The notes under the pieces: model-generated
Databases searched by the model: none
The model's input: only the letters and a program-made list of their open reading frames with translations
Told to the model about the DNA's origin: nothing
Position numbers and translations under genes: made by a program
In this document: positions 1-27,500 of the stretch, piece by piece
How the letters are laid out: the number at the start of each line of letters is the position of its first letter
Position numbering within the stretch: the stretch's first letter is position 1
From: Medakamo hakoo
Taxonomy: Eukaryota; Chlorophyta; Trebouxiophyceae; Coccomyxaceae
DNA length: 27,500 bases
Assembly: GCA_026636295.1 (NCBI GenBank)
Contig: CP089457.1
Location: 577,501-605,000, forward strand
Direction of reading: 5' to 3'

Positions 1-154
1 CCAATTGATCCTCGTTAAGGGATTTAGATTGTACTCATTCCAATTACCAGAGTTGAAAAACCCCGGTATTGTTATTTATTGTCACTACCTCCCTGTATCA
101 GGATTGGGTAATTTGCGCGCCTGCTGCCTTCCTTGGATGTGGTAGCCGTTTCTC

Positions 155-587
155 CGCGTGTTCCGTGCCGAGTGTCCGAAGGACAACCCAACACTCCACG
201 AGCTCTCCCCGGTCCGTATGTGGGCCGGTTCCTCTCGCAGACCACCTTTCGGTGGGGGCCGACTATATCTCAAGCCTCCTTTCCATGCAGGAAAGGAAGC
301 CCACTGCCATCTAGTCTGTGAACTGCATCCGTGGGCGGTTCGCGTCATCGCGGCCGCCGGCAGGACTTGGCTGCGGATAACCCATTGGTGCATCTCTGGA
401 CGTTTTGACCGTACCCGAGGGCGTTAACCCCCGGCCACCGGCCGCGTTTCCGCGCCGGCTTGGTAGTCGCAGAGCTTTAGGGCCTCCCCGCAATTTGACA
501 GTGTTGCCCGGGCCGTGTTGTCGCACGGCCGGACTACCGGGGGCACACCCGCGTGTGCCCCAAGTCTCGAGCCCAAGAAAATTGTAT
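155..587 (-). ncRNA. Group I intron (IC1-like) in 18S, second site
   Basis: This 433-nt insert lies between exon ...GGGAGCCT and GAGAAACGG, which corresponds to about E. coli SSU position 323. It follows group I rules: the upstream exon ends in U and the intron ends in G. The internal guide GGGCUC pairs with exon GAGCCU through a terminal U-G wobble, forming P1. The conserved core blocks are present (GACTAGATGGCAGTGGG and GATATAGTCGG, the R and S elements of IC1 introns). A P8-like hairpin (CCTTTCC, loop ATGCA, GGAAAGG) lies between them. The intron is too short for a homing endonuclease and no such frame is seen, so it should be a ribozyme without its own mobility gene. Confidence 0.9.
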
Positions 588-947
588 AGGCTCCCTCTCC
601 GGAATCGAACCCTAATCCTCCGTCACCCGTTACCACCACCGTAGGCCACTACCTTACGGTTGAAAGTTGATAGGGCAGAAATTTGAATGAAACATCGCCG
701 GCACGAGGCCATGCGATTCGTGAAGTTATCATGATTCACCGCGAGTCGGGCAAGCCCGGTCGGCCTTTTATCTAATAAATACGTCCCTTCCAGAAGTCGG
801 GATTTACGCACGTATTAGCTCTAGAATTACTACGGTTATCCGAGTAGTAAAGTACCATCAAATAAACTATAACTGATTTAATGAGCCATTCGCAGTTTCA
901 CAGTATAAAGCAGTTTATACTTAGACATGCATGGCTTAATCTTTGAG

Positions 948-1368
948 CGTTGCTTCGGTCGCGAAGGGCCAGGGCCCCTGCCCGAGGGCAGTACTACTCG
1001 CGTCCTTCGACAGCTCTCCGGCCCCCGCGGGAGGGGGGCCATCCTCTGTCGAACCACCTTGCGTGTGGGAACCGACTATATCTCAAGCCTCCACACACGC
1101 ATGCGTGTGTGGAGACCCACCGACATTTAGTCTGTGAACTGCACCCGCGGGAAAACGCGTTTTCCCAGCGGACTTGGCTGCCCATTGCCCCTCTGATCGC
1201 ATCACAGGATTGTCACCGTGCCCGCAGGTTTCCCTGCGGTGCGCTGCCGCCCTTTCGGGCGCCAGGCGGTACCGTGGTGCGTCGGGGTGTCCGGGCAATT
1301 TGACGGTGTTGCCCAACTCCGTGGTTGGACTAGCATGCAATTCGCATGCTTTCACTTGCCAAAAGGAA
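948..1368 (-). ncRNA. Group I intron (IC1-like) in 18S, first site
   Basis: This 421-nt insert lies between ...CATATGCTTGT and CTCAAAGATTAAG, only 35 nt into the 18S gene. The upstream exon ends in U and the intron ends in G. Guide GCAAG pairs with exon CUUGU, with the expected U-G at the cleavage site. The R block GACTAAATGTCGGTGGG and S block GATATAGTCGG are close to those of the Tetrahymena intron. A perfect 26-bp palindrome at 1089-1114, rich in CA/TG, sits between R and S and should form P8. Another perfect palindrome is at 1149-1166. There is no room for a homing endonuclease. Confidence 0.9.
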
Positions 1369-1435
1369 ACAAGCATATGACTACTGGCAGGATCAACCAG
1401 GTAGCTGCCTTTCCCGAGCGGGTCGCGGCGGCAAT

Positions 1436-1458
1436 CGTCTTTTCGAAAAGAAAAGACG
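1436..1458. repeat. Hairpin just upstream of 18S 5' end (left)
   Basis: Arms CGTCTTTT (1436-1443) and AAAAGACG (1451-1458) form a perfect 8-bp stem with a 7-nt loop. Flanking GTCGCGG and CCGCGAC can extend it. Its place next to the mature 18S end suggests a role in pre-rRNA folding or cleavage, as 5' ETS hairpins have in other eukaryotes. That role is inferred. Confidence 0.6.
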
Positions 1459-2106
1459 ACAGAACCAACCGCGACTGAATCCGTTCGTCCTCAAGCCCCA
1501 TTGCAGGGCAGGAGTGTATGAAAGGTTTTGAATCGCTACTTGTGTGTGTGTTGTGTAGCTGCGCCGATCCGACGCCGCACCGGCAACGAGGGCCGGGCGG
1601 GCGCGGAAGACGGACGCTTGCTTCGAGTCCGGTTCAAAGAAACCGTCCCCCACCACCCGTCGGCGGAGCGGAGGAACTGGCAGGGTGCGCGGTCGAACGA
1701 CCGGCCTGCCGCCTCCCGCCGGCGGGGGTGCGTCGCCAGCTGACCCCGGGTCGCGTCGACCGCGCCTTCGAAAAAGCGCGGGTCGCGATGCCTCCCGGAG
1801 CCGGACCTGGCCAACGGCTGTGTTTCGTAAGTTTGTGCATCGCATAGCAGCACGAACTTCCCACCGCGCCCCGGCCAAACCTTGCCTTTTGAGGAGCAAG
1901 GGGCGGGGCTGGGCGTGTGTCGGCCCGCCGGCCTCCCCCCTCCGAAGAGGAGGGAGGCGGCGGACCATTCGTTGATACCGGCAAAAGAACCGAGGCGTTG
2001 AGGTCGCTCCAGGCGCTGCCGCAGCAGCTCCCGGACGCGCCGCGTCGGGCCGGACTGTCACTCACCAAAGAATGTTGGAAAACAGCTACTGGGCAAGTCC
2101 CTGCAT

Positions 2107-2148
2107 GCCGGCGGGTCCCAGGCTGTTCAGCCTGGGGCGGCCGCCGGC
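2107..2148. repeat. Nested inverted repeat in rDNA spacer (left)
   Basis: The inner stem is CCCAGGCT (2117-2124), loop GTTC, AGCCTGGG (2129-2136). The outer stem is GCCGGCGG (2107-2114) with CCGCCGGC (2141-2148). Both stems are perfect. This could be a structural element of the spacer, an RNA polymerase I terminator or promoter element, or a processing site. The sequence alone does not decide. Confidence 0.5.
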
Positions 2149-2328
2149 GGGCGCCTGTCACTGGGTCGGGGAGAGGTCGTCTCCCCACAGACGAGGTGCA
2201 GGGTGAGGTGGGTGGGGCACGACAACACGGGTGACATTAGGCACTGGGAGAGGGTGGGCTCTGGGCAGTGTGGCCGGGGGAGTTGACGAAACAATGCGAG
2301 CTCTCTCCCCTGTCTTTTTGCATGGGGG

Positions 2329-2730
2329 TGAGGCGTCGGCCGCCTCGCCCGCCGCCTCGTCACGCCCCGCACCCACGGTCCTGGGGGCGGGGCGGCTAGG
2401 TGAGTGACAAGGCGGGCGGTGGGTGGGTGGGTGGGTGGGCGGGCGGCGTGAGTGAGAGCGTGGCCTGGGCCGCCGCCGCCGCGCGCTCTGTGTGTGTCCG
2501 GCGACGCCACCCAGCCCTAGCGCTGCGCGGCTCACTGGTTTTTCTTTTCCCCTTCTCTCGCCGGGGGGGGTCTGGGGGTGTAGTACACCCGGCCCTCCCG
2601 AACACCCACATGAACAGTGCTCCTCTCTCGGCTTGTGGGTTACAGAAAACACACGCGCCCGCCTCCGCTGCCCTCCCTTCCCTGCCCTCCCCCCTGCCCT
2701 CCCTCCCCATACCCGCCCATCCCTTGCTTT
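2329..2730. other. Diverged spacer between rDNA arm and first protein gene
   Basis: From 2329 to about 2590 this stretch is still recognisably related to the right side (about 25035-25304), but with indels and substitutions. It includes short GGTGG and GGGC tandem repeats near 2420-2450. From about 2600 to 2730 it is a C- and CCCT-rich tract that should be the 3' flank of the carrier gene. I see no gene here. Confidence 0.6.
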
Positions 2731-4083
2731 TCACTTGCGCGCGGGCGCCGCCCAATCGGCCGCCTTGGGCGCGTAAAACAGCTTGGCCTGCTCCAACGCG
2801 GAGAAGAAGACGCACCCGCCCAGGCCGATCCACAGGACGCGCGGCTCCCACCCGCGGAAGAGCGTGGCGACGCCCTCCTCGCGCACAATCTTGGCTGTGC
2901 AGTCGGCGATGCCCTTGTACCGGCCAGTCGCGCCCTGGGTCATCAGCCGGGTTTTGAGCACGTCCAGGGGTGTGGTGACGACACCCGTGATGGCGCCCGC
3001 CGCCGCGCCGATGGCCGACACCTCCGCCGCGTTGACGTCGCGGGCGCCCTTGAGCGAGGCCGCGTACGCGCGCTTGAGCTGCTCGTACGCGACAAACTCG
3101 ATGGCGTCGAACGGGATGTCCCGCAACAGGAAGGAGCCGTAGCCGGCGAACATGCCGCGCAGGCCCTCCCGGGCGACGATGGACCGGACGGCCGCGGTCG
3201 CGGCCGCAAACTCGCCGGACTGCATGCGCTGCTTGACGACCTCTGTTGGCACGCGCACGACCGACGCGGCCACGCCCGCGGTCGCGCCCGCGACCAGGGG
3301 GCCCAGCCACTCCTTGCCCGGTGGCGCCCCGTCGGCCACCCGGCGCTTGACCGGCTCGTACACGCCCATGAAGATGGCGGACGCTGGCATGACGCCGGCC
3401 AGGTTGCCCCACACGCCCGAGTACAGGGCCTTGCCGCCGCCGGCTTGGAGCAGGGCGCGCAGGCCGCCGCCCGACCGCATGAGCTGGAGCCGGGTCTTGA
3501 TGGTGTCGATGGGGTACAGGGCTGTTGCGTGGGCGGGTGTATGGGGAGTGAGTGTGCGTCGGAAAAAAAAACAGGCCCACCACCCACATGTGCAAGCGCG
3601 GCTTTTCTCACCTGCTTCCACCGCCGCGCCCGCCGTCGCGCCGGCCGCCAGGTTGCCCAGAACGACCCGCCACTGCGGCGCGCCCGTCGCGGGTGGCGCG
3701 GCCGCCCCGCCCGCGGCGGCCAGCGTCGCGACCGGGCCGCCGGCCTTGGCGGTGGTGGTGGTGGTGGTGGCGGTCGCTGTGCCGCGGCCACCGTTGCCCG
3801 CCGTCCCCATCGTCATGCTGGCAAAGCCCGCCGCCCGCCGGCGCCGGGGCGGTAGAGCCGCCGCAGTGACCAGGCCGGCGGTCGCGGCGGTGTCGTGGTG
3901 GTCATGGTGGCCGCGGTGGCTCCGGCGCGGGCCGGCCGGCCGGCCGGCGCGGCGGTGGTGGGCCGCGTCAGCCGAGCGGGTCGGGCGGCCGCTCAACTCA
4001 AAGCGCGCGCGCGCAAAGTCTACGGCCGGCGGGGTGGCGGCCGCGTCCTGGACGTCCACCCAGCGGCAGGCAGCCGTCAGCAT
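2731..4083 (-). CDS. SAMC: S-adenosylmethionine carrier, mitochondrial carrier family
   Basis: This is a membrane carrier that should import S-adenosylmethionine into plastid or mitochondrion in exchange for S-adenosylhomocysteine. Exons are 3612-4083 and 2731-3521. The 90-nt intron (GTGAG...CAG) is a multiple of three with no stop, but its removal restores the family text [15 protein letters not shown]. The spliced product is 420 aa. All three carrier signatures are visible: [16 protein letters not shown] and [21 protein letters not shown] and [17 protein letters not shown] are typical of plant SAMC/SLC25A26. The first ATG gives a long Ala/Thr/Gly-rich leader that may be a transit peptide. 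An inner ATG at 3816 would give 331 aa, nearer the usual size. It is divergent from CTP synthase, with 229 bp between the starts. Confidence 0.92.
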
Positions 4084-4312
4084 GGCGGGCAGCGGGAGGC
4101 GGGGAGGGGCGGTGTGTGGCTGTCGGAGCGGGCGAAACAGAGAGGCAAAGCCGCCGCGTCGCGCGAGTGAGCGGCGACGCTGCCGCAAGCCGCCGCCGGT
4201 TGCCTGCCATCATTCTTGCTTTTCTCTCGCGGGCGAGGGGGCGGCCTACCCTCTACACACACTCCACGCACCCTCCCCGGCGGCCGTGTGCTCACGCCAC
4301 CCACCACCCCCA
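4084..4312. promoter_or_regulatory. Shared upstream region, carrier and CTP synthase
   Basis: These 229 bp separate two divergent start codons and must hold both 5' leaders and promoters. No TATA-like motif stands out. The CTP synthase side is CA- and CCACC-rich just before its ATG. A bidirectional promoter is inferred from spacing only. Confidence 0.45.
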
Positions 4313-6955
4313 ATGAAGTACGTCCTCGTCACCGGCGGCGTGGTGTCGGGCCTGGGCAAGGGCGTGACGGCGTCGTCGATTGGCGTCATCCTCCAGGCGT
4401 GCGGCCACCGGGTGACGTCCATCAAGATTGGTGCGTGTGCGGGCGTGGTAGGTGTGGTGGGCGTGTGGGGCGGAGGAGGGGAAGGCGCCGGCGCGCGCTG
4501 GCCGGTCCACCTCTCTCCTGTTTTTCGCGCGGGCGTCGATGCGGCGCGCGCAACCGCTGCTGGGCTGTCGGGGCTGGAGGCCCAGCCCTCGTTCTCACCC
4601 CCGCCCCTGCCTCCACCCTCCCTCCCCACCCACCAGACCCGTACCTCAACACGGATGCGGGCACGATGTCGCCCTTTGAACACGGCGAAGTGTTTGTGCT
4701 GGACGACGGCGGCGAGGTGCGTTGGACCCCCTTTTTTTGAAAGAGCCGGGGAGAGAGGGGGCGCCCGTTTTTTTCTGCTCGCGGCGGCCGATGCGGCGGC
4801 CCACGCTGCGAAATGGCCCGGCAACGGGCGGGCGGGGGCCGCCACTGCCCGTCCGCCGCTCGCATGGTCTGTCCAGCGCACCAGACAACCTCCTGACCGC
4901 GTGACGCGGGCAGGAGGCGGCTGCGTGGACGGTTTGCCCGGCCCCCAGGCGGGGCGCGAAAGAGAGAAAAAAACGTCGCGCGCAGTCCCTGCTTGTTTCG
5001 CTGACCACGCTCTCCCACGCCCCACCCCCTCTCTCTACACACCGACACACCCAGGTCGACCTGGACCTGGGCAACTACGAGCGCTTCCTGGACCTGACCC
5101 TGACCCGGGACAACAACCTGACGACGGGCAAGGTGTACCAGGCCGTCATCGAAAAGGAGCGGCGGGGCGACTACCTGGGCAAGACGGTCCAGGTCGTGCC
5201 CCACATCACGGACGCGATCCAAGAGTGGATCGAGCGCGTCGCGCACGTGCCCGTCGACGGCCGGCCGGGCCCGGCGGACGTGTGCGTCATCGAGCTGGGC
5301 GGCACGGTGGGCGACATCGAGTCCATGCCCTTTGTCGAAGCGCTGCGCCAGTTCCAGTTCAGGGTCGGGCCGGGCAACTTTTGCAGCGTGCACGTCTCCC
5401 TCGTCCCCGTCCTGGGCGTCGTCGGCGAGCAGAAGACCAAGCCCACCCAGCACAGCGTGTCCGTGCTGCGGTCGCTGGGCCTGAACCCGCACATGCTGGC
5501 GTGCCGGTCGCAGGAGCCGCTGTCGGACGCGGTGCGCGAAAAGCTGGTGCGTTTTCTTTTTGGCTTTTTTTTTGAGCGGTGGTGGGTGGGTTGGGTGGAT
5601 GGAGCGCCGGACGCCCGGGTCGCGAGCTTGTGGGCTCGGTCCAAAGCACCGCGATCCGAGAAGCACGCCGCCGTCCCAACCACCCCGCCGTCCCAACGAC
5701 CCCTCACAACTCACCACCTGTCTCACCACCACCCACCGTCCCATCAAACCACACACACACACGCGCGCGCCAGGCCCTCTTCTGCCAGGTGCCGACCAAG
5801 CACGTCCTCAACATGCACGACGTCTCCAACATCTGGAAGGTGCCGCTCGTCCTGGAAGCCCAGGGCGCGCACGAGTCCATTTGCGCCCAGCTCCAGCTGT
5901 CGGGCGCCGACCGCATGAACCTGGCGCACTGGAAGACGACGCTGGCGGACCGGTGGGACAACCTGGAATCATCGCTGACCATCGCCATGGTCGGCAAGTA
6001 CACTGGCCTGTCTGACGCGTACCTGTCCGTCATCAAAGCCCTCCAGCACGCGTGCCTGGCCGTCAACCGGCGCCTGGACCTGGCGTGGGTCGACGCGGAA
6101 AAGCTGGAGGACGCGGCCAAGGCCGAGGACGAGGCGGCCTGGGCGGCCGCGCACGCCACGCTCGCCGCCGCGCACGGCGTCCTGGTCCCCGGCGGCTTCG
6201 GCGGGCGGGGCGTGGAGGGCAAGATCCTGGCGGCCAAGTACGCGCGCGAGGCGGGCAAGCCGTACCTGGGCATCTGCCTGGGCATGCAGCTGGCCGTCGT
6301 CGAGTACGCGCGCAACGTGCTGGGCCTGGCCGACGCCAACTCCGCGGAATTCGACGCGGCCACGCCCCACCCGGCCGTCGTCTTCATGCCGGAAGGGTCG
6401 ACGACGCACAAGGGCGGGACGATGCGGCTGGGCTCGCGGCGGACCGTGCTCGAAACGGTCGACTGCATCGCGGCCAAGCTGTACCAGGCGGAGCAGTACG
6501 TGCACGAGCGGCACCGCCACCGGTACGAAGTCAACCCCACGCTCGTGCCGGAGCTGGAGGCGAAAGGCCTGAAGTTTGTGGGCAAGGACGAGACGGGCCA
6601 GCGCATGGAGATCGTGGAGCTCCAGGTGAGCGAGGAGGGTGGTGGCGTGGAGGAGGTGGGGGGTTGTTTTTTTTTTTTCACGCACGCACGCGCACCCCAC
6701 ACTCACACCCACCCATCCCAAAACAACACGCACATACAGGGCCACCCCTACTACGTCGCCGCCCAGTTCCACCCGGAGTTTAAATCCCGCCCCGGCAAGC
6801 CGTCCCCGCTGTTCCTGGGCCTGGTCCTGGCCGCGTCGGGCAAGCTGGACAACTGGCTGAGCGGCAACCCGCTCAGCCCGGCGGCCGCGCCGGCCAAGCG
6901 GGCCCGGGTGGCGGCGGCCAAGGGCGGCGGCAAGCCGCTGAAAGAAAACTTGTGA
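4313..6955 (+). CDS. CTPS: CTP synthase
   Basis: The enzyme makes CTP from UTP, ATP and glutamine, the last step of de novo pyrimidine nucleotide synthesis. It has five exons: 4313-4430, 4637-4716, 5055-5546, 5774-6625 and 6740-6955. The introns of 206, 338, 227 and 114 nt start GTGCG or GTGAG and end in AG. The spliced protein is 585 aa, normal for eukaryotes. The N-terminal synthetase domain has [17 protein letters not shown] and continues across the introns as [15 protein letters not shown] and [15 protein letters not shown]. The C-terminal glutamine amidotransferase domain has its nucleophile Cys398 in GICLGMQ and the His525/Glu527 pair in FHPEF, so it looks active. Regulation by CTP and GTP and filament assembly are known for the family but cannot be judged here. 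The tail is Ala/Lys-rich. Confidence 0.97.
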
Positions 6956-7536: not shown

Positions 7537-9118
7537 ATGCGCAGCTTCCTGAACAAGGTCGCCACCGCCCGCGGCAGCTCCCGCGACGGCGGCATCGGCG
7601 GCGGCCCAGGCGGCGGCGGCGGCCTGGGCGCCGACCTGGTCGGCCGCACGCTGGCCATCGGCCCGACCGCGACTGTCCTGGTCGACCGCCCCATCGGCGA
7701 GGGTGGCTTCGCCACCATCTACCGCGCCCGCGACCTGGCCACGGGCGAGGCAGTCGCTCTCAAGCACGTCCGCCTGGCGGGCGACGCGGACGCGGCGGCC
7801 GACTGCCGCAACGAGGTGGGCGTCATGTGGGCGCTGCGCGGCCACCCGCACATCCTCACCCTGCGCGCCGCGACGGGCGGGGGCGTGGACGCAGTCATCG
7901 CGGGTGGTGATGGTGGCCGTGGTGGTGGTGGTGGAGAGGATGGGCGTGGCGAGCAGGTCGCTGGCGCCGCCGCGGCGGCGGCAGCAGCGACGGCCGACCA
8001 GGCGCCAACGACGGCCGCGGCCACCACACCCACCGGCACTCCTCCACCTCCACCTCCCGCGGACGAGGCCCTGCTGCTCATGGACCTGTGCACCGAAAGC
8101 TTGGCCGACCGCCTGCGCGCCGCGGGTGCGGCAGCCGCCGCCGCCGCCGCCGCCGCACCCGCAGCCGGCCCACCCCAACCGGTCGGCCTGCCGCCCGCCG
8201 ACGCGGCGGCCGCCTTCCGGGACGTGTGCCGGGGCGTGGCGGCCATGCACGCCGCGTCGCCGCCCCTGTTCCACCGGGACATCAAAGCCGAAAACGTGCT
8301 GCTCCACGCCAGCGGGCGGTGGGTGCTGTGCGACTTTGGCAGCGCGACCGCGTGGGCGGGCGTGCACCGCGACACCGACGCGATCATGGTCGCGGAGGAT
8401 GAGGTCCGCCGCCGCACGACGCCCGCGTACCGGGCGCCCGAGCTGTTTGACCTGTACACCCGGGAACGGCTGGACGGCCGGGTGGACGTGTGGGCGCTGG
8501 GCGTGCTGCTGTACCTGCTGGCGGCCGGGCGTCTGCCCTTCACGACCGGCGCCGACACCAACAAGCTGGCCGTCCTGGGCGGGCGGTTCCCGCCGCTGCC
8601 GCCGGGCGTGCCGCCGGCCATGGCCGCCCTGGTGGGCGACCTGCTGGCCGTAGCGCCCGCGGACCGGCCGGCCATGGTCGCCGTCCTGGCCCGGGCGGAA
8701 GCCCTGGCGGCCGACTTGGAGGCGGGTGGTGGCGGTGGCGGTGGTGGTGGAGGTGAGAGTGCGGCGGCCGTGCCACCACAGGCTGACCCGGTGGCGGCGC
8801 CCGCACCGGAGGCTGGCCACCTCATGCCGCCGTCGCCGTTGGCGGCGGCAGGAGGCACGTCGCCCGCCCGGCGCCAGGTCTCCAAGCCGGCCGGCAGCGG
8901 CTTTGCCGCGTTTGGCCCACCCAAACGCGGCGACGGCGGTGGTGAGGCGGCGCGGCCCGCGAGCCCAGCGCCCGCGCCCACCGCCGCCGCCCGGCCGGGA
9001 GGTGGCGGCGGGGCGGGCACGTTTTGGGCCCGGCATGGGAGCGGTGAGGCCGGCCCGCCGCCCGGCGGCAGCCCGGTGAAGCAGCAGCAGCAGGCGGCGG
9101 CGACGGCGCCTGCGTCAC

Positions 9119-9722: not shown

Positions 9723-11464
9723 ATGCGGTGTCTGTACGAAGTCCTGGGCATCGCCCGGGACGCGGACGACGGCGCCATCAAGACCGCATACCGGCGGGCC
9801 GCCTTGCAATGGCACCCAGGTGCGTGGGCGCGGCGGGTGGGGAGCGATGGACAAGTGTTGTTTCCTCCCTGGCCACCAGCTCACACGCCCTGTTTCCTTT
9901 TTCCCACTCTCAAAAAGATAAAAACCAGGACCGGGCCGAAGAAGCGGCCGACCGGTTCAAAGAAATCCAGAACGCGTACGAGGTCTTGAGCGACGCCCAC
10001 GAGCGGGCGTGGTACGACAGCCACCGCGACGCGATCCTGCGGTCGGGCACGTCGTACCAGGCCGGCGCCGACGGCTGTGGCGCGGGTCAGCCGCCGGACA
10101 GCGAGTTTGATTTGTACCCATACTTTTCGGCGGCCTGTTTCAAGGGGTACGGCGACGGCCCGCAATCTTTTTACGGCGTGTACGGCGACGTGTTTGCCCG
10201 GCTGGCGGCGGCCGAGCGGGAAGCCGGCGCGCCCGGCCCGGTGCCCGCCTTTGGCGGGCCCGCCGCGGCGTGGGCCGCCGTCTCCGCTTTTTACGACTGG
10301 TGGTCGTCCTTTGCGACGGCGAAGGACTTTGCGTGGGCAGACGAGTACAACCCGGCGTCCGCGCCCAACCGCAAGGTGCGCCGCCTGATCGAGGACGACA
10401 ACCGCAAGCGCCGCGCCAAAGCCCGCCGCGAGTTCAATGAGACCGTGCGCGAGCTGGCCGCCTTTGTGCGCAAGCGGGACAAGCGGGTGGCCGCCCAGGC
10501 CGCGGACGCGGCCCGGGCCAAGGCCCAGCGCGAGCAGGAGGCGGCCGCCCGGCGGGAGGCGGAGAAGCTGGAGCGGGCCGCGCGCGCGCGCGCGTACCAG
10601 GAGCCGGCCTGGGTGCGCGGCGGCGATGGTGACGGCAGCGCGTCCGCCAGCGGTGGCGACGACAGCGACGACAGCGGTGCCGGTGCTGGTGGTGGTGCGG
10701 CCGCCGACGCGGCGCCGCTGCTGCACTGCGTCGCGTGCGACAAGCTGTTCCGGTCGGCGGGCGCCATGGCCAACCACGAAAGGTCCAAGAAACACGCGGA
10801 AGCCGTGGCCGTGCTGCGCGCCATGCTGGCCGAGGACGACGCCCTCGTGAGTGGAAGTGAGGAGGAAGAGGAAGTGGTGGAGGATGAGGCGGCGACGACG
10901 GCGACGGATGAGGAGGGTTGGAGCAGCAGCAGCGCCGGCACTGCGACAACCAGCGACGACGGCGGCAGCGACGATGACTCTTCTTCGACCACCTCCACCA
11001 CCACCACCTCCTCCTCCACCACGACCACCACCACCTCCTCCTCCTCCTCCTCCTCTTCATCTGCGTCTGCCTCTGCATCCGGCGGCAGCGTGGGCGACGA
11101 CGAGTTTGTGGCCCGTCTGCTGGCTGGCGCGGCGCAGCGGCGCCGGGCTGCAACGGCGCCGCCCTCTTCCTCCTCTTCTTCTTCGTCGTCGGACGACGAC
11201 GAAGCCGCGACCGACGCCCTGCCCGACCTGGCATCCCTGGCCGTGGATGAGTGCACGGCCGCCGGCGCACCGGCTGCAGCCGCGCCGCCGCCGCCTCCCG
11301 CCCAGGCCAAGCGGGCGACCAAGCCGCGCCGCGCGGCCGGGCGCAAGGCCAAGGGCGGCCCGCCCGATGCGCCGGCGTGTCGCGTGTGTGGCGAGGCCTT
11401 CTCCTCCAGGGGTGCCCTGTTCAAGCACTTGGAAGCCAGCGGGCACGCGCGGGCAGGTGTGTAG
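9723..11464 (+). CDS. JJJ1: J-domain protein with two C2H2 zinc fingers (JJJ1/DNAJC21 type)
   Basis: This is a cytosolic Hsp70 co-chaperone. The yeast homologue Jjj1 helps release the Arx1 export factor from pre-60S ribosomes. Exons are 9723-9819 and 9918-11464. The 98-nt intron cuts the codon for Asp33, so the catalytic HPD motif exists only after splicing (WHPDKNQDR). The product is 547 aa. The J domain is about 1-70, followed by the family-typical region with FYDWWSSF and NRKVRRLIEDDNRKRRAKAR. A charged helical stretch comes next, then zinc finger 1 near 303-325 (CVACDKLF...H). Finger 2 is near 520-542 (CRVCGEAF...H), at the extreme C-terminus. Between the fingers lies an acidic, then Ser/Thr-repeat tract coded by TCC/ACC microsatellites (about 10850-11080). 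The ATG follows an A7 run. Confidence 0.93.
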
Positions 11465-17508: not shown

Positions 17509-18285
17509 ATGAACCAAGGCGCGCCCGGCTTTGCGGGCGCGCCCGTCACCAAGGCCTTGCTCCTGGCGGCGGGCGTGGCGTCGCTGGCAGGCGCGGGCGG
17601 CGATGGTGAGGCGTCGTCGTCGTTCGGCGCGCTGCGCCGCCTCGCGTTTGGGAGCGCGACCCAGGCCCTGTTCGGCCTGGGCAGTCTCTACCACGCCCGC
17701 ACCCTGGAACGGTTGCTGGGCCCGGCAAAGTACGGCGCGCACGCCTGCCTGGCCGCCGTCCTGACGGGCGGGTCGGCCGTCGGCCTGGCGTTTGCCGCCC
17801 TGGCCGGCCTGGCCGCGGCTGTGCCGCCGACCGCGACCTTTCACGTGGCCGGCCTCACCCTGACGGACCGGGCGTTCCTGGCCGCGGCGGCGGCCCAGCT
17901 GCTGGTGGCGGGCGGTTCAGGCGGCCTGGTCCCTGCCGCGGCGGGAGCGGCGGTGGCGGGCCTGCTGCACTTCCAACCCGCCCTGGCCGGCCTGGACACG
18001 CCGCCTGCTGCCCAGGCCGCGCTCGGCCGCCTGTTTGGGCCCGTCCTGGGCGGCAAGCACCACTCCCGCATCGTCGTCCCCGCGTCCGCCACGGCTGGTG
18101 GCGGTGGCGGTGGTGGCGGTCGGCTCGGTGGTGGCCCGCCGCGCCGGGCGCCCGCGGCCGAGCCCTCGCCCGCAGCTGTCCAACAGTTAGTCGCGATGGG
18201 ATTCAGCGCGGACAGAGCGCGGGCAGCCTTGCGGCAGACCGGCGGGGACGACGTGCAAGCCGCCCTGGCTGTCCTGCTGGCGTGA
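17509..18285 (+). CDS. UBAC2-like rhomboid-related membrane protein with C-terminal UBA domain
   Basis: This is a single exon of 258 aa. The N-terminal 170 residues hold several hydrophobic Ala/Leu/Gly segments, starting with GAPVTKALLLAAGVASL, consistent with the rhomboid-like membrane domain of UBAC2 and plant UBA-rhomboid proteins. Family members sit in the ER membrane and help in protein degradation or trafficking. I do not see a clear Ser-His catalytic pair, so it may be a pseudoprotease. A Gly-rich linker follows. The last 40 residues (AAVQQLVAMGFSADRARAALRQ...VLLA) form a textbook ubiquitin-associated domain with the MGF loop. The gene converges on Der, with 62 bp between the stops. 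The UBA call is strong and the membrane-domain call is moderate. Confidence 0.82.
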   Translation: MNQGAPGFAGAPVTKALLLAAGVASLAGAGGDGEASSSFGALRRLAFGSATQALFGLGSLYHARTLERLLGPAKYGAHACLAAVLTGGSAVGLAFAALAGLAAAVPPTATFHVAGLTLTDRAFLAAAAAQLLVAGGSGGLVPAAAGAAVAGLLHFQPALAGLDTPPAAQAALGRLFGPVLGGKHHSRIVVPASATAGGGGGGGGRLGGGPPRRAPAAEPSPAAVQQLVAMGFSADRARAALRQTGGDDVQAALAVLLA

Positions 18286-18347: not shown

Positions 18348-20344
18348 TCAGCGCCGGCCCGCCGCCGGCGGCCGCACGTGCAGGCGCAGCGGCACGCCGT
18401 CAAACCCAAATGCCGCGCGCAGCCGCTTGGTCAGCAGGCGGCGCGTGGGCGGTGCCAGGTCGCCGCTGCCGCGGACGAAGGCGACAAAGCCGGGCGGCCG
18501 CACGCTGGCCTGGGTCAGGTAGCGCACGCGCCGCGCGTCGCGCGCGGCCGCGCCGCCGCCGCCGCCACCCGCCTCCAGGTCGCGCACCGTGTCGGCCAGC
18601 CACGCGTTCAGGCGGGATGTCGGCACGCGCCGGTTCCAGGCCGCGTGCACGGCCGCGACGGCGGGCATGAGCGCGCCCACGCCGTCCCCCGTCTCCGCGC
18701 TGAGGGCCAGGCACGGTGCGCCGGCCGCGCCGGGCACGCGGGCGGCCACGTCCCGGGCGAGGGCGGCACACGCAGCAGCAGCAGCAGCAGCAGCATCTGC
18801 TTCATCAGTCAGCAGGTCGACCTTGTTGGCGACAAAGACCAGGCCCCGCCCCTCGGCGACGGCCGCGGCCGCGATCGCGACTTCAGCCCGCGTCAGGGTG
18901 TGGCCCGCGGCCGGCGGCCGGCGAGCGCCGCTGCGCCCGCCTCCCGCCGCCGTGGCCGCCGCGGCCGCGGCCGCCGCCGCATCCGTAACCAGGACGACGC
19001 AGTGCGCGACGTCCACGCCCCGCTCAGCCTGGTCCTGGGCTTCCAGGGTCAGGGCGACGGCTTGCGCGTTGGCCGCGCCGACGGACGATGGCGGCGGCAG
19101 GTGGGTGGTGTGGGTGGCGGTCGTCGTCGTCGTCGTCTTCGTCGTCGTCGTGCCGGCGACGACGTGCCCGCCCGCCGGCGTGCCCACCGCACGCCCGCCC
19201 GGTCCGCCTCGCCCAGCCGCCGCGACGACGCTGCCGCCTGGGACGCGGCCACCGGCCGTGGCCGCGCGCCGCACCCAGCCCGCCGTGTCAATGACCTCCA
19301 CCCGCCGCCCGGCCCAGGCAAACGCCGCGCGCACCGCGTCCCGGGTCAGGCCCGGTTCCGGGCCGGTCAGGGAGCGGGCCTCGCCGAGCAGCGTGTTGAC
19401 GAGCGTGGACTTGCCCGCGTTGGGCAGGCCGACGACGGCCAGCCTGATGGTGGTGGTGGATCCACTGCCATCAGGCTCGTCCTCGCCACCGCCTCCACCC
19501 TCCCGCGCCTCCGCCTCCGCTGTCGCCGCCGCTGCATCCACCAACGGCTGCAGCGCCGCGTACAGGTCGGCCATGCCCTCCCCCGTCTCGGCCGACACGC
19601 CGACCGCGTCGCCAAAGCCCAGGCCGCCCGCTTCGGCCACGGCCGCCGCGATGGCGGGCACCTCCCGCGCGCGCTCGGCCTTGTTCACGGCCGCAATGAC
19701 CGCGCCCGGCCGCGCTGCCGTGCGCAGCCAGGCTGCCAGGGCAGCGTCGCCCGGCGTGACGCCCGTGCGCGCGTCCAGGAGCAAGAGGGCCGCGTGCGCG
19801 CGCGCGACAACGCCAGCCGTCAGCGCGGTCGCCCGCCCCTGGAGGCTGGCACCCGACATGAAGGGTTCCAGGCCGGACGTGTCGACGGCCGTGAAACGCA
19901 GGTCGCCCAGGGACGCCGCGCCCTCCCGGTAGTCCCGCGTCACGTGGCCACCCGGCGTGTCCATGACCATGGCCGCCCGCCGGCCGACCAGGCGGTTGAA
20001 CAGCGCGGACTTGCCCACGTTGGGCCGGCCGACGATGGCGACCTGTTTTGGGGGTGTTCAGAAGAGGGGGTTCTGTGAGTCGGAAGCGGGGAGGAAGGTG
20101 TGTTTGGGTTGTTGCGGCGAGAAAAAAAAACGGCGGCGGACACGCCTCTCACCGTGGCGGCGGGTGGGTCGGCCGACCGTGGCTGCAGCCGCGCCGCCGC
20201 ATTGCCTCCTCTCCTTCGCCCGGCCCGCGTCGACGCGGGCCGTGCCCAGCCTGTCCACGGCCAGTTACCGTGCGCCAGGCACGGTCCCGCCAGCGCCGAG
20301 GGTGGCGGCGGCCGGAGCAGGAGGGTGGCCAGCCCTCGTAGCAT
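18348..20344 (-). CDS. DER: Der/EngA double GTPase, organelle-targeted
   Basis: Der is a tandem-GTPase factor for assembly of bacterial-type large ribosomal subunits. Plant homologues act in the plastid. Exons are 20153-20344 and 18348-20042 (110-nt intron, GTGAG...CAG), giving 628 aa. The first exon is a leader (MLRGLATLLLRPPPPSALAG) typical of plastid or mitochondrial targeting. An in-frame stop just upstream fixes the start. GTPase 1 has GRPNVGKS (69-76), DTSG (118-121) and NKAE (184-187) in place of the usual NKxD. GTPase 2 has GLPNAGKS (269-276), DTAGW (316-320), NKVD (470-473) and SAETG. The C-terminal KH-like domain is present (RVPTSRLNAWL, FVRGSGDLAPPTRRLLTKRLR). About 60 low-complexity residues with a poly-Thr run sit between DTAGW and the rest of GTPase 2. 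Confidence 0.93.
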
Positions 20345-20455: not shown

Positions 20456-21241
20456 CTACGGCGCACCCGCCCCGCCCGGCAGGATCTCCGACAGTGCTGC
20501 CGTGGGCGGGGTCGCCCCGCCTCCACCTTTGTCCGCCGCTGTCGCCAACCCTCCCCCACTCCCTACGCCGACCACCCGCTTCGCACCGTCCAGCACGTCG
20601 CCCGGCACCGTCGCCAGCAGCCGGTCCAGGGCGGCCAGGGCGGCAGCCAGGCGGGCGTCCGCGTCCGCAACCGGCACCGGCCCGCCGTCCCGGACCGCCC
20701 GGTACAGGACGCCGTCCAGGCTTTCCAGGGCGGTGAAAAAGTCGGCGGCCAGGCGAGGCTGCGGCGGCGCCGCGGTGCCCGTTCCGGCCGCCGTCGTCGC
20801 AGCAGCAGCAGCAGCAGCCGCAGCCGCGTACTCGCCGATCGCCCGCACATTGTCGCGCAAGCCTTCAAACGCGCCCGACCGCAGCAGGCGGCGCGCGTCC
20901 TTGGCGTCCCCGTACGCGGCCGGCAGGCGGGCCAGCTGGGCGCGCGCGTCCAGGACGGGCGGCACGTAGCTGGCCAGCGGGTCCAGCTTGCGCTTGCGCA
21001 CATACTTGTCCAGGCCGGCCGCGGCCGCGTGGGGTGGGGGCCGGCACGCCCAGGCGGCCAGGCCGGCCGCCAGCAGGGCCGCGTGCGCGGTGCGGCGGGT
21101 GGTTGGGAGGGGACGAGGTGGAACAGGGGCCGGCGGCGGCGCAGGCGGCGCGCGCGGCGCAGCCTGCTGCTGCTGTTCGCCCGCCGGCCGGCACGCAGAC
21201 GAGGCCGGCGCGCGCGCCAGTGATGACCGGGCGGGCTGCAT
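20456..21241 (-). CDS. Probable thylakoid lumen protein, conserved unknown domain
   Basis: This is a single exon of 261 aa. Residues 1-75 form a bipartite plastid leader: a Ser/Ala/Pro/Gln-rich first part, then twin Arg (49-50), a hydrophobic AALLAAGLAAWA and an Ala-rich cleavage site before GLDKY. This suggests Tat export into the lumen. The mature part (GLDKYVRKRKLDPLASYVPP, RRLLRSGAFEGLRDNVRAIGEYA, ALESLDGVLYRAV, LLATVPGDVLDGAK) resembles a plant and algal plastid family of unknown function, as I recall it. It is mostly helical, perhaps a PsbQ-like bundle, which is a guess. It is on the same strand as Der, 111 bp downstream of the Der start, and divergent from cysteine synthase. Confidence 0.8.
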   Translation of the reverse strand: MQPARSSLARAPASSACRPAGEQQQQAAPRAPPAPPPAPVPPRPLPTTRRTAHAALLAAGLAAWACRPPPHAAAAGLDKYVRKRKLDPLASYVPPVLDARAQLARLPAAYGDAKDARRLLRSGAFEGLRDNVRAIGEYAAAAAAAAAATTAAGTGTAAPPQPRLAADFFTALESLDGVLYRAVRDGGPVPVADADARLAAALAALDRLLATVPGDVLDGAKRVVGVGSGGGLATAADKGGGGATPPTAALSEILPGGAGAP

Positions 21242-21426
21242 GGGCTGCGCGTGCGCGGAGTGGGATGTCCCGCGTGTTTTTTTTTTGGGACGGCACTCAC
21301 AAGATGAGACGTGTGAGAGTTTCCGACCCCGACTCCCCAGACCCGAAAAACTAGCCTCAGCACTTCGGTGGCGTGGGTGTCGTCTCTCTTGCACGCCCCA
21401 CCACACGCCACCACACAACAACCGCC
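21242..21426. promoter_or_regulatory. Shared upstream region, lumen protein and cysteine synthase
   Basis: These 185 bp separate divergent starts of two plastid-type genes. A T10 run at about 21278-21287 lies on the lumen-protein side, and CACCACACGCC repeats lie before the cysteine synthase ATG. Co-regulation is possible but not shown. Confidence 0.45.
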
Positions 21427-23070
21427 ATGCCCGCCCTGCACCGGGCGCACACCCTGCGGCTGTCCCACCCGTTCGCGCGCCAGGTGAGAGCCGCGCAGGC
21501 CTAGCGTCGCCTGCGGCGGAAAAAAAGAGGACGAGAGCACAATTGTCCGCTCTGCATGCCCCCGTCGACGGCTCGAGAAGACTCTTTCCTTGGGGCCGCC
21601 GCCGCCGCCCGCCCACAACACCAACACCTTTGCTCCCACCTGCGCGCATGCGTGTGCACAAGGATGCCGATACTAGGCATGGAGCGCTCACGTTTTTGTT
21701 CCGCCTAAATAAAAAAATTTGCAGGCTCATGCTGCTGGGCGGCCAGCCCTGGCGGCGCAGCCGACCACCTCCACCCGCGTCCGCCGCGGCATGCCGGGCG
21801 TCGTCGCCGCCGTCGCGGCGGGCCGGCCCAAGATCGCCAACAACGTGACCGAGCTCATTGGTGCGTTGGAATGGTGTCTGGGGCAACACGCACGCGGGCT
21901 TTGCTCCGTCCGCGGCGCCTCCCCTCCCTCTTACACTCCCCCTCCCCGCTTGTCCGCAAAAAAAAAAAGGCGACACGCCCATGGTCTTCCTCAACCGCCT
22001 AACCGCCGGCATCCCGGGCGGCGCCCGCGTCGCCGTCAAGCTGGAGACCCAGGAACCCTGCCGCAGCGTCAAGGACCGCATCGGGCGGGGCATGATCGAG
22101 GACGCGGAGCGCAAGGGCCTGATCACGCCCGGGAAAACCACGCTCGTCGAACCGACGTCGGGCAACACGGGCATCGGCCTGGCCTTCATCGCCGCGGCCA
22201 AGGGCTACAAGCTCGTCCTGACCATGCCCGCGTCCATGAGCCTGGAGCGCCGCGTCCTGCTGCGCGCGTTTGGGGCGGAGCTGGTGTTGACGGACCCGGC
22301 CAAGGTGAGTGTGTGTGAGTGTGGGTGGGTGGGTGTGGGGGGTGGGGAGGGTGAGTTTTTCCCGCACAACACACACTCACGCCCCCCCAAAACACGGCCT
22401 CTTCGACGAACAACACCAGGGCATGAAGGGCGCGGTCGCCAAAGCCCAGGAAATCGCGGCCAAGACGGCCGGCGCGTACGTCCTGCAACAGTTTGAAAAC
22501 GGGGCCAACGCGGACGCGCACCGGGCGACGACCGGCCCGGAAATCTGGGCGGACACGGCCGGCCAGGTGGACGTCCTCGTCTCCGGCGTGGGCACGGGCG
22601 GCACCATCACGGGCGCGGGCGGCTTCCTAAAGTCCAAAAAACCGGGCGTCAAGGTCGTGGCAGTGGAGCCGGCCGAGTCGCCCGTCCTGGCCGGCGGCGC
22701 GCCGGGCCCGCACAAGATCCAGGGCATTGGTGCCGGCTTTGTGCCCGGCGTCCTGGACACTGCCGTGTACGACGAGGTCATGCAAGTCGGCAGCGATGAG
22801 GCCATCGCCATGGCCCGCCGCCTGGCGACGGAGGAAGGCATCTTTTGCGGTATCTCGTCCGGCGCCGCCGCCCTGGCCGCCCTGCGCATCGCGGCCCGGC
22901 CGGAGAGCGCGGGCGCGCTCATCGTCGCCGTCCTGCCCTCCTTTGGTGAGCGGTACCTGTCCACCGCCCTGTTTGCGGCGGTGCGGGAGGAGGCGGAGGC
23001 CATGGCCGTCGGCGACCGGGTGCGGCTGGCGGACGAGGCGGGGCGTGAATTTTTCGTGCCGCCGCTGTGA
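21427..23070 (+). CDS. OASTL: Cysteine synthase (O-acetylserine (thiol)lyase), plastid type
   Basis: This is a pyridoxal-phosphate enzyme making cysteine from O-acetylserine and sulfide. Exons are 21427-21483, 21725-21860, 21970-22304 and 22420-23070. The introns are 241, 109 and 115 nt. The second acceptor is a bare A-run followed by AG, but it rejoins [11 protein letters not shown] exactly. The product is 392 aa. The first 55 residues, rich in Arg/Ala/His, look like a plastid transit peptide. PLP-binding Lys99 sits in SVKDRIG, followed by the phosphate and substrate loops TSGNTG (127-132), GTGGT and GISSGAA, and the family text [21 protein letters not shown] and [11 protein letters not shown]. 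Family members bind serine acetyltransferase, and that partner is not in this window. All key residues are present. Confidence 0.96.
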
Positions 23071-23380
23071 GGAGGGGGGGGGGCTCGTGAGAATGGGCTT
23101 GGGGACGGGACGTGGGTGGTCGTGTTGAACACGAGAAAAGACGACACCGGCGGAGTTTGTGTGTGTTGTGTGCATGCGCGTGTGTGTCAGACAAAACCCG
23201 GCGAGAGGGAGGTGGCAGTGTCGAGACGGTGGTCGAGACGGACGCGACGGACGCGGGCGCGGCGGAGCGAGCCCGCGCACAACCGCGAATTGAAGGCTTT
23301 CCGCACGCCGCGCCGCGTGGGCGCCGGCCCGCCTGTCCGCACGCGCGCGCATACTCAGCACACGCGGTCGCAACCCCGCC
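23071..23380. other. Intergenic region after cysteine synthase
   Basis: This 310-bp stretch holds the cysteine synthase 3' end and the leader of the next plus-strand gene. It begins with a G9 run and contains a TGTGTGTTGTGTGCATGCG tract. I see no gene or RNA in it. Confidence 0.45.
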
Positions 23381-23920: not shown

Positions 23921-24027
23921 GTGCGCAGTTTGTAAAAAAGAAGAAAAAAAAGACGTCCGCAGCGCCCTTTTTGTGTCCGTGTTCTACAGGCTCCCGCCTC
24001 TCGCGTCCATCCATCTATCCACCAGTC

Positions 24028-25007
24028 TCACCCGACCAGCCGGAAAGACGACACCGCCGCCCGCAGCGCCGCCGCCTCCGCCGGCCAGGCCGCCGCCCGC
24101 GCCGTGCCCGCCACCAGGAAGACGCGGCCCGCCCGTGCGACGGCCGCCAGCGTCACGCGCAGGCCGTCCCGCCCCTCAAACTCGTACCTGTACACCGTCT
24201 GGGGCGGCGTCGGCACGACGCCAGCCACCGTGCCCGTGTCCCGGTCCGGCTGAGCGACGACCTGGGTCGCGGACGCCAGGACGCGCACGCCGCGCGGCAG
24301 GAGCAGGCCGGCGACGGTGGCGACGTCGCCCCACTGTGACAGGTCGGTCACCTGCAGGAACGTGGGCTTGATGCCGGACGCCTCCCGGGCGATGACCGTC
24401 AGCTCCGCGTCGCCTCCGGGCGACACGCACCGCACCTTCACCGGTGAGTCCGCGGGCGCGACGCCCCGGCCGCGCTCGCCACGCTCGCGGGCTGTGGGTG
24501 GTGGGTTGGAAGTGAGGGGGTGAGAGGGTGAGAGAGTCTGGGCGTCGCGACCCGCACTCGCCCCCGCCCGCCCGTGTTCCCTCCTCTACACTCGCCTGAC
24601 GCGGGCGCCGACCCGGGCGCGGCCGCCAGGAGGACGATGTCGTAGCCACGGGGCGGCGACACCGAAAAGCCCGGCGCGTCCAGGCGGTCGCCCAGGAGGG
24701 GAGGTGGAGTGGGTGAGGCGGGCGGCGACGCCATCGCCGACGGCGCAGCAGCAACAGGCGCCGCGTCGACTGCTGCCGCGGCACCGCCGGACCAGGCCGG
24801 CGCCAGGGCCGTGCTGACCACCGCCAGGGCGGCACGCCGGGTCAGGAGGTCGGCGGCGTCGGCGTCGGCCCCGGCCGGCCGACTCGTGGCCGCGCAATCG
24901 GCCGGTGCACGCCTAGCCAGCGCCCGACGAGAGGGCGGGGCGGCCGCGATAGGGCCGGCACCGGGCGTGGCTCTGGCCCGAGTGGCGGGCAGGGTGGGAG
25001 CCCGCAT
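24028..25007 (-). CDS. PsbP-domain protein, thylakoid lumen
   Basis: This belongs to the PsbP/PPD family, whose members support photosystem II or I or the NDH complex from the lumen. Exons are 24596-25007 and 24028-24491, giving 291 aa. The leader is bipartite: an Arg/Ala/Pro-rich plastid part, then LLTRRAALAVVSTALAP with twin Arg57-58, suggesting Tat export. Next come an Ala/Pro linker and the PsbP fold, starting at PGFSVSPPRGYDIVLL. It continues with SPVKVRCVSPGGDAELTVI, TDLSQWGDVATVAGLLLP and VYRYEFEGRDGLRVTLAAVARAGRVFLVAGTA, and ends in VSSFRLVG. The 104-nt intron seems to use a GC donor (CAG|GCGAGT). The only other donor keeping frame is a weak GT four bases further on. Which of the PPD subfamilies it belongs to is unclear. 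It is the gene nearest the right rDNA arm. Confidence 0.88.
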
Positions 25008-25304
25008 GTGACGTTGGGGGTGTGTGGCGCGCGTGCGTCGCTCTCTACACCCCAGGCCCCCCCGGCGAGAGAAAAACCAGTGAGCCGCGCAGCGCAAAGG
25101 CTGGAGTCCGTCGCCGGACGCACAGAGCGCGCGGCGGCGGCGGCCCAGGCCAAAGACAAACCAACACGCTCTCACTCACGCCACCCACTCACCCGCCCAC
25201 CCACCCACCGCCCGCCCGCCTTGTCACTCGCCTAGCCGCCCCGCCCCCAGGACCGTGGGTGCGGGGCGTGACGAGGCGGCCGGCAACAAACGCGACGCCT
25301 CACC
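25008..25304. other. Diverged spacer between PsbP gene and right rDNA arm
   Basis: This stretch holds the PsbP promoter and leader next to 25008, then from about 25035 a diverged counterpart of the left spacer at 2329-2600. Shared blocks such as AAAAACCAGTGAGCCGCGCAG and the GCGGCGGCGGCCCAGGCC tract are separated by indels. ACCCACCCACC repeats mirror the GGTGG repeats on the left. No gene is seen. Confidence 0.6.
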
Positions 25305-25484
25305 CCCCCATGCAAAAAGACAGGGGAGAGAGCTCGCATTGTTTCGTCAACTCCCCCGGCCACACTGCCCAGAGCCCACCCTCTCCCAGTGCCTAATGTC
25401 ACCCGTGTTGTCGTGCCCCACCCACCTCACCCTGCACCTCGTCTGTGGGGAGACGACCTCTCCCCGACCCAGTGACAGGCGCCC

Positions 25485-25526
25485 GCCGGCGGCCGCCCCA
25501 GGCTGAACAGCCTGGGACCCGCCGGC
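25485..25526. repeat. Nested inverted repeat in rDNA spacer (right)
   Basis: This is the mirror of 2107-2148. The inner stem is CCCAGGCT (25497-25504) and AGCCTGGG (25509-25516) in the reverse-complement setting, with the same GC-rich outer stem. Confidence 0.5.
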
Positions 25527-26174
25527 ATGCAGGGACTTGCCCAGTAGCTGTTTTCCAACATTCTTTGGTGAGTGACAGTCCGGCCCGACGCGGCGCGTCC
25601 GGGAGCTGCTGCGGCAGCGCCTGGAGCGACCTCAACGCCTCGGTTCTTTTGCCGGTATCAACGAATGGTCCGCCGCCTCCCTCCTCTTCGGAGGGGGGAG
25701 GCCGGCGGGCCGACACACGCCCAGCCCCGCCCCTTGCTCCTCAAAAGGCAAGGTTTGGCCGGGGCGCGGTGGGAAGTTCGTGCTGCTATGCGATGCACAA
25801 ACTTACGAAACACAGCCGTTGGCCAGGTCCGGCTCCGGGAGGCATCGCGACCCGCGCTTTTTCGAAGGCGCGGTCGACGCGACCCGGGGTCAGCTGGCGA
25901 CGCACCCCCGCCGGCGGGAGGCGGCAGGCCGGTCGTTCGACCGCGCACCCTGCCAGTTCCTCCGCTCCGCCGACGGGTGGTGGGGGACGGTTTCTTTGAA
26001 CCGGACTCGAAGCAAGCGTCCGTCTTCCGCGCCCGCCCGGCCCTCGTTGCCGGTGCGGCGTCGGATCGGCGCAGCTACACAACACACACACAAGTAGCGA
26101 TTCAAAACCTTTCATACACTCCTGCCCTGCAATGGGGCTTGAGGACGAACGGATTCAGTCGCGGTTGGTTCTGT

Positions 26175-26197
26175 CGTCTTTTCTTTTCGAAAAGACG
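26175..26197. repeat. Hairpin just upstream of 18S 5' end (right)
   Basis: CGTCTTTT at 26175-26182 pairs with AAAAGACG at 26190-26197. It ends 32 nt before the 18S start. It is the mirror of the left copy and likely folds in the pre-rRNA. Confidence 0.6.
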
Positions 26198-26264
26198 ATT
26201 GCCGCCGCGACCCGCTCGGGAAAGGCAGCTACCTGGTTGATCCTGCCAGTAGTCATATGCTTGT

Positions 26265-26685
26265 TTCCTTTTGGCAAGTGAAAGCATGCGAATTGCATGC
26301 TAGTCCAACCACGGAGTTGGGCAACACCGTCAAATTGCCCGGACACCCCGACGCACCACGGTACCGCCTGGCGCCCGAAAGGGCGGCAGCGCACCGCAGG
26401 GAAACCTGCGGGCACGGTGACAATCCTGTGATGCGATCAGAGGGGCAATGGGCAGCCAAGTCCGCTGGGAAAACGCGTTTTCCCGCGGGTGCAGTTCACA
26501 GACTAAATGTCGGTGGGTCTCCACACACGCATGCGTGTGTGGAGGCTTGAGATATAGTCGGTTCCCACACGCAAGGTGGTTCGACAGAGGATGGCCCCCC
26601 TCCCGCGGGGGCCGGAGAGCTGTCGAAGGACGCGAGTAGTACTGCCCTCGGGCAGGGGCCCTGGCCCTTCGCGACCGAAGCAACG
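26265..26685 (+). ncRNA. Group I intron (IC1-like) in right 18S, first site
   Basis: This is the 421-nt twin of the left intron at 948-1368. Guide GCAAG (26274-26278) pairs with exon CUUGU (26260-26264). The R block starts near 26501 and the S block GATATAGTCGG is at 26551-26561. The intron ends in G before CTCAAAGATTAAG. Confidence 0.9.
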
Positions 26686-27045
26686 CTCAAAGATTAAGCC
26701 ATGCATGTCTAAGTATAAACTGCTTTATACTGTGAAACTGCGAATGGCTCATTAAATCAGTTATAGTTTATTTGATGGTACTTTACTACTCGGATAACCG
26801 TAGTAATTCTAGAGCTAATACGTGCGTAAATCCCGACTTCTGGAAGGGACGTATTTATTAGATAAAAGGCCGACCGGGCTTGCCCGACTCGCGGTGAATC
26901 ATGATAACTTCACGAATCGCATGGCCTCGTGCCGGCGATGTTTCATTCAAATTTCTGCCCTATCAACTTTCAACCGTAAGGTAGTGGCCTACGGTGGTGG
27001 TAACGGGTGACGGAGGATTAGGGTTCGATTCCGGAGAGGGAGCCT

Positions 27046-27478
27046 ATACAATTTTCTTGGGCTCGAGACTTGGGGCACACGCGGGTGTGCCCCCGGTAGT
27101 CCGGCCGTGCGACAACACGGCCCGGGCAACACTGTCAAATTGCGGGGAGGCCCTAAAGCTCTGCGACTACCAAGCCGGCGCGGAAACGCGGCCGGTGGCC
27201 GGGGGTTAACGCCCTCGGGTACGGTCAAAACGTCCAGAGATGCACCAATGGGTTATCCGCAGCCAAGTCCTGCCGGCGGCCGCGATGACGCGAACCGCCC
27301 ACGGATGCAGTTCACAGACTAGATGGCAGTGGGCTTCCTTTCCTGCATGGAAAGGAGGCTTGAGATATAGTCGGCCCCCACCGAAAGGTGGTCTGCGAGA
27401 GGAACCGGCCCACATACGGACCGGGGAGAGCTCGTGGAGTGTTGGGTTGTCCTTCGGACACTCGGCACGGAACACGCG
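27046..27478 (+). ncRNA. Group I intron (IC1-like) in right 18S, second site
   Basis: This is the 433-nt twin of the left intron at 155-587. Guide GGGCUC (27059-27064) pairs with exon GAGCCU ending at 27045. The R block is near 27317-27333 and the S block near 27363-27373. The intron ends in G before GAGAAACGG and has no endonuclease frame. Confidence 0.9.
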
Positions 27479-27500
27479 GAGAAACGGCTACCACATCCAA

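Follow-up and report, generated by a model that had tools for sequence, protein, structure and literature searches.

The closest described counterpart of the locus reported here comes from the fungus Rhizophagus irregularis, in which two contigs each carry, on opposite strands, a pair of ribosomal DNA (rDNA) copies; intervals of 76 and 90 kb, which contain 31 and 42 protein genes, separate the members of these pairs (PMC6123716; this and the other reports cited are represented here by parts of their text). One of these pairs has similar 5' regions, and the authors suggested that inverted placement guards the copies from loss by single-strand annealing (PMC6123716). Pairs on the same contig are more alike than other paralogs, yet there is also an identical pair whose members lie on different contigs, and the non-tandem copies as a group are heterogeneous, with internal transcribed spacers 90-93% identical and 18S genes 99.9% identical (PMC6123716). 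In algae the number of rDNA copies can be low, with four units in Ostreococcus and three in Cyanidioschyzon (PMC1955436), and Chlamydomonas has, besides its main rDNA, about 12 scattered units that are singular or partial (PMC10030371, PMC8226300). Here we describe a 27,500-nucleotide stretch of contig CP089457.1 (positions 577,501 to 605,000 of the forward strand; hereafter the window, numbered from its first letter), in which two rDNA copies lie on opposite strands with protein genes between them.

Both ends of the window fall inside eukaryotic 18S ribosomal RNA (rRNA) genes, neither of which is complete. The 5' ends of these genes, placed by the 18S 5' motif and accompanied by eukaryotic small-subunit (SSU) rRNA matches in both arms, lie at 1404 on the minus strand and at 26229 on the plus strand, so that the genes point outward. 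The arms 133-2328 and 25305-27500 form an inverted repeat of 2196 bp that is 100% complementary, with zero differences; at a chance expectation of about 10^-1172, a chance origin is out of the question. The perfect run stops on its inner side at 2328 and 25305, and on the outer side the right arm is truncated by the window end at 27500, such that the real arm is probably longer than 2196 bp. The original prediction of outward-facing 18S genes at both window ends, with arms matching over at least 2.2 kb, was therefore borne out by the perfect inverted repeat and by the Rfam SSU matches in both arms. The rDNA features are as follows.

1-1404, minus strand: 5' part of the left 18S rRNA gene, which continues beyond the window (Rfam SSU_rRNA_eukarya, 387.9 bits; 5' motif at 1404), with exons at about 1404-1367, 947-588 and 154-1 (blastn against five eukaryotic 18S genes)
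155-587, minus strand: left 18S intron 2, of group I (Rfam Intron_gpI at 240-584, 85.2 bits; exon edges from 18S alignment and 5' motif)
948-1366, minus strand: left 18S intron 1, of group I (Rfam Intron_gpI at 1053-1376, 85.5 bits; exon edges from 18S alignment and 5' motif)
1405-2328, minus strand: left 5' external spacer, without a difference from the right arm (arm alignment)
2329-2577, minus strand: outer part of the left rDNA leader, diverged from its homologue on the right (flank alignment, outer limit by eye)
25047-25304, plus strand: outer part of the right rDNA leader, diverged from its left-hand homologue (flank alignment, outer limit by eye)
25305-26228, plus strand: right 5' external spacer, without a difference from the left arm (arm alignment)
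26229-27500, plus strand: 5' part of the right 18S rRNA gene, which continues beyond the window and has the same pair of group I introns (Rfam SSU, 249.3 bits, and Intron_gpI; motif at 26229)
about 26267-26685 and about 27046-27478, plus strand: group I introns of the right 18S (Rfam Intron_gpI)

Homology between the arms extends inward past 2328 and 25305, where the original prediction had ended them. Alignment of the flanks gave 246 matches, 24 mismatches and 61 gap columns, and its score of 358 compares with maxima of 80.5 among 200 two-base-block shuffles and 101 among 218 island windows. The computed alignment starts at 2623 and 24997 but is convincing by eye only from about 2577 and 25047, which were taken as the outer limits of the homologous sequence. 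On this basis each 18S gene is preceded by a leader of about 1.2 kb (1173 nt on the left, 1182 nt on the right), of which the inner 924 nt, the spacer directly upstream of the 18S, is identical between the arms and the outer 250 nt or so has diverged. At the rate found in the outer leader (24 mismatches in 270 aligned sites) the 924-nt spacer should hold about 82 differences, and none was observed. Perfect identity of this kind is the product either of gene conversion or of a single collapsed rDNA sequence placed twice by the assembler, and the two have the same appearance in the window.

The similarity of the two leaders gives out 1173 nt (left) and 1182 nt (right) upstream of the 18S, almost the same rDNA position, suggesting units with defined ends rather than the random edges of two arrays, and a homologous, diverged leader is present on both sides, such that the link between leader and rDNA looks genuine at both junctions. 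A tandem array may lie beyond each 18S gene. The start codon of the rightmost gene of the island (25007) stands only about 40 nt from the diverged right leader (25047); its promoter would consequently overlap rDNA-derived sequence, diverging from RNA polymerase I transcription.

We favour, with moderate confidence, the view that the window holds two inverted rDNA copies on a normal nuclear chromosome of a GC-rich, intron-bearing eukaryote, probably a chlorophyte green alga. The copies lie 22.5 kb apart in opposite orientation, with their 5' ends inward and housekeeping genes between them. Several lines of evidence support this view: the two junctions are different but homologous, and the island between the homologous arms (22,469 bp, 71.8% GC) is not mirrored, being non-palindromic with a largest internal inverted pair of 54 nt at 70%. 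Moreover, protein genes reach almost to the rDNA on either side, with the stop codon of a mitochondrial carrier open reading frame about 150 nt from the left leader and the gene mentioned above about 40 nt from the right one. Also in line with it are the contrast between the unchanged 2196 bp and the mismatched outer leader, the GC-rich third codon positions of the coding exons and, across the window, short tandem repeats with neither a transfer RNA nor a telomere array. Such a layout could have originated when an rDNA unit carrying the leader of about 1.2 kb was dispersed or was duplicated in inverted orientation, after which gene conversion between the copies (or with others) would hold the spacer and the 18S free of differences and leave the outer 250 bp of the leader to drift. 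Transcription of both units by RNA polymerase I would proceed away from the island, whose genes would have no functional tie to the rDNA location. Because of the inverted placement, a crossover between the pair would flip the island rather than delete it.

Several points weigh against this view. The perfect identity of the arms equals what a collapsed assembly path gives, and a 924-nt spacer without a difference, when set against the heterogeneous copies of Rhizophagus, favours arrays or collapse over single dispersed units. With both 18S genes incomplete, each copy may stand alone or may open a tandem array, and in the green algae compared the main rDNA forms arrays (PMC10030371, PMC8226300, PMC12633428, PMC11005252). 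Finally, the chlorophyte assignment is suggested by features of the 18S, by GC content and by plastid-type genes rather than by a tree.

Errors of assembly were among the explanations to be weighed. The original prediction had raised an assembly fold-back, which in its simple form we reject: it predicts mirrored sequence and one junction, whereas the island is unmirrored over 22.5 kb, its largest inverted pair being the 54-nt one noted above, and the two junctions are homologous but differ. Likewise, a chimeric join of unrelated pieces would not put a homologous, diverged leader on both sides. An effect of the assembly path is harder to dismiss, and we regard it as unlikely but deserving real weight. 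Short reads would collapse the rDNA to one sequence into which the assembler exits from the island at both ends; the island would then adjoin two ordinary rDNA arrays that are separate from each other, or one of the junctions would be false, and the identity of the arms would be uninformative. The arms are a full 100% identical as far as the base at which the flanks start to diverge, as a collapsed graph node would give, but the homologous diverged leaders at both junctions are unlike the outcome of a random chimeric join.

The other alternatives take the sequence at face value. A very small linear chromosome with an rDNA cap at each end, in the style of nucleomorphs and microsporidia, was another proposal of the original prediction and appears very improbable, since only the orientation speaks for it: the rDNA at each end points outward, as it does in Encephalitozoon cuniculi, whose rDNA is transcribed towards the telomere (PMC4704409). 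The E. cuniculi chromosomes, at 217-315 kb, are far larger (PMC4704409), the 72% GC of the island contrasts with about 23-25% in the Lotharella nucleomorph cores (PMC4035089), and rDNA at all chromosome ends is not seen in Cyanidioschyzon or Ostreococcus (PMC1955436). A scan of the window for eight telomere motifs returned isolated matches only and no array, although the window ends before the 28S and before a telomere would be expected. Candidate centromeres of the trebouxiophyte Auxenochlorella are AT-rich (PMC12633428), and the island has no AT-rich, centromere-like trough, its lowest 1-kb GC content being 62.6%. We give scarcely any credence to a multicopy extrachromosomal rDNA element of the Physarum or Dictyostelium type whose centre has captured protein genes. 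Two diverging rDNA units, group I introns in the rDNA and a Physarum central spacer that also measures about 23 kb (PMC13182076) would agree with it, but the centre is neither palindromic nor repeat-laden and holds varied housekeeping genes, and the window shows no telomere array. An inverted repeat of at least 2.2 kb is ample for homologous recombination, and the suggestion that the segment could invert, with both orientations present in the population, is thus mechanically possible; the window holds no evidence of two orientations, and we consider that flipping as the explanation has only a slight chance of being correct. Among the layouts originally proposed, an island inside an rDNA region fits best in broad terms, most likely as two dispersed inverted rDNA copies.

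The reading of two inverted copies on a nuclear chromosome can be extended. In a form that we find doubtful, a green alga would have few, non-tandem, inverted rDNA copies, kept alike by gene conversion over a sharply bounded tract, two of them enclosing an invertible 22-kb block of essential genes, so that the Rhizophagus arrangement would have evolved independently in a phototroph. A still bolder form, an rDNA minichromosome carrying housekeeping genes, is less likely than non-tandem inverted copies.

We went on to examine the gene content of the island. The original prediction of about 22 kb with 15 dense housekeeping genes was borne out as to size but only in part as to number: 11 loci have Pfam matches above the cut-off, and a twelfth, PsbP-like, falls below it (expectation value, E=0.35). 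The loci are listed below.

2731-4188, minus strand: open reading frame with mitochondrial carrier domain, start uncertain (Pfam Mito_carr, 2.6e-55, three stretches)
4316-6622, plus strand: CTP synthase, several exons (Pfam CTP_synth_N and GATase, three frames)
8188-8688, plus strand: protein kinase domain (Pfam Pkinase, 2.9e-30)
9732-10795, plus strand: zuotin-like DnaJ protein, several exons (Pfam DnaJ, ZUO1-like_ZHD, zf-C2H2_jaz)
11691-12158, minus strand: HAD-like hydrolase (Pfam Hydrolase_like, 9.3e-13)
12778-13977, plus strand: ankyrin repeats and RING finger, counted as one locus (Pfam Ank_2, zf-C3HC4_3)
14105-14569, minus strand: NSA2, 60S ribosome biogenesis (Pfam Ribosomal_S8e, 1.5e-34; NSA2 chains in PDB, best E 2.8e-83)
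17509-18285, plus strand: UBA-domain protein, part (Pfam UBA, 2.9e-10)
18372-20045, minus strand: EngA/Der GTPase, two GTPase stretches and a KH-like domain (Pfam MMR_HSR1, 1.3e-33; KH_dom-like, 2.5e-14)
20573-20980, minus strand: DUF7880 protein (Pfam, 6.5e-26 and 6.7e-29)
21966-22938, plus strand: cysteine synthase, at least two exons (Pfam PALP; cysteine synthases in PDB, best E 5.4e-69)
24031-25007, minus strand: probable plastid-targeted PsbP-like gene, probably two exons (transit-like N terminus by eye; PsbP match below cut-off)

PDB sequence searches were run on two of the products, NSA2 and cysteine synthase, and both agree with Pfam. Ten chosen stretches were searched against Pfam; six had no match at all, and the sub-threshold PsbP match came from this set. 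A C2H2 match near 11378-11434, also below threshold, may be part of the zuotin-like DnaJ gene. Candidate nuclear genes for plastid proteins comprise EngA/Der and DUF7880 above the cut-off and the PsbP-like gene below it. In the coding exons of the training set, third codon positions are 91% GC. ARAGORN detected no transfer RNA in the window, and the tandem repeats of the window are short (30 rows, longest span 76 bp).

The 18S gene of each arm is interrupted by two group I introns, which in the left arm score 85.5 and 85.2 bits against a gathering score of 50 for Rfam Intron_gpI. Exon edges were set by alignment to five other eukaryotic 18S genes together with the 18S 5' motif. We take the insertion sites to be approximately S40 for intron 1 and S392 for intron 2 (Escherichia coli numbering); a literature search on 18S introns at S40 and S392 yielded nothing useful among the matches listed. 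Intron 1 is inserted only about 38 nt into the 18S gene. The two introns align with one another in the core, where a 52-nt segment is 77% identical, and are probably related.

Related sequences were sought in other collections. In IMG/VR, patterns built on the 18S introns and on the rDNA spacer each retrieved 0 stretches, and a pattern from an NSA2 fragment retrieved six, none of which was confirmed as a relative. A conserved 18S pattern found one 3.3-kb IMG/VR contig through an exact 33-mer; at its end (3266-3326) lies a 64-nt match to the 18S at 90.6%, with no spacer or island match at E 1e-3 and no Rfam match at the gathering score in the 18S-like stretch. This contig may not be viral. Among prokaryote genomes a conserved 18S pattern identified five contigs with eukaryotic 18S, in assemblies titled Blastococcus, Bacteroidetes metagenome-assembled genome (MAG), Flavobacteriales MAG, Brenneria and Planomonospora. 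Their 18S exon pieces are 83-97% identical to the 18S of the window and they have no match to its introns, spacer or island; therefore they were taken to derive from other organisms, and the eukaryotic 18S in these prokaryote assemblies is most likely contamination.

If both junctions are real and the copies single, a likely phototroph joins the rare eukaryotes with non-tandem rDNA. The locus would then offer a naturally occurring pair of copies that shows, at single-base resolution, the edge of rDNA homogenisation (2328 and 25305), and this edge would bear on concerted evolution without tandem arrays. If not, the window is an ordinary contig running into collapsed rDNA.

Looking across known systems, the 48S pairs of R. 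irregularis are the nearest in layout, with a pair of rDNA copies placed on opposite strands of the same contig and protein genes between them. The likeness lies in the opposite strands, as the part of that report used here does not state that the copies face outward (PMC6123716). In contrast to that fungus, the spacing here is 22.5 kb rather than 76-90 kb with 31-42 genes, the arrangement is known from the sequence of the window alone rather than proven by long reads, and no difference separates the copies over the part within the window, whereas those of R. irregularis are heterogeneous (PMC6123716). The rDNA-capped chromosomes of Encephalitozoon and of nucleomorphs share rDNA near both ends, read towards the telomere in E. 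cuniculi, but differ in chromosome size (217-315 kb in E. cuniculi), in having telomeres and, for nucleomorphs, in their AT-rich cores (PMC4704409, PMC10158259, PMC4035089). The extrachromosomal rDNA of Physarum, Dictyostelium and Tetrahymena likewise has two inverted rRNA units around a centre, diverging in Physarum; those molecules are palindromic and the Physarum spacer is repeat-laden, whereas the centre here consists of unique protein genes (PMC13182076). Chlamydomonas, Auxenochlorella and Chlorella probably belong to the same phylum as the window, yet their main rDNA forms arrays at the ends of chromosome arms or, in C. sorokiniana, a region inside chromosome 1 (PMC10030371, PMC8226300, PMC12633428, PMC11005252). 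We found no report of diverging rDNA around a protein-gene island in a green alga in the open-access literature, a weak negative given that most subscription papers fall outside that search and that the sources found are represented in part. The arrangement is thus of a known kind, and this instance, if its junctions hold, is a more closely spaced case in a probable green alga.

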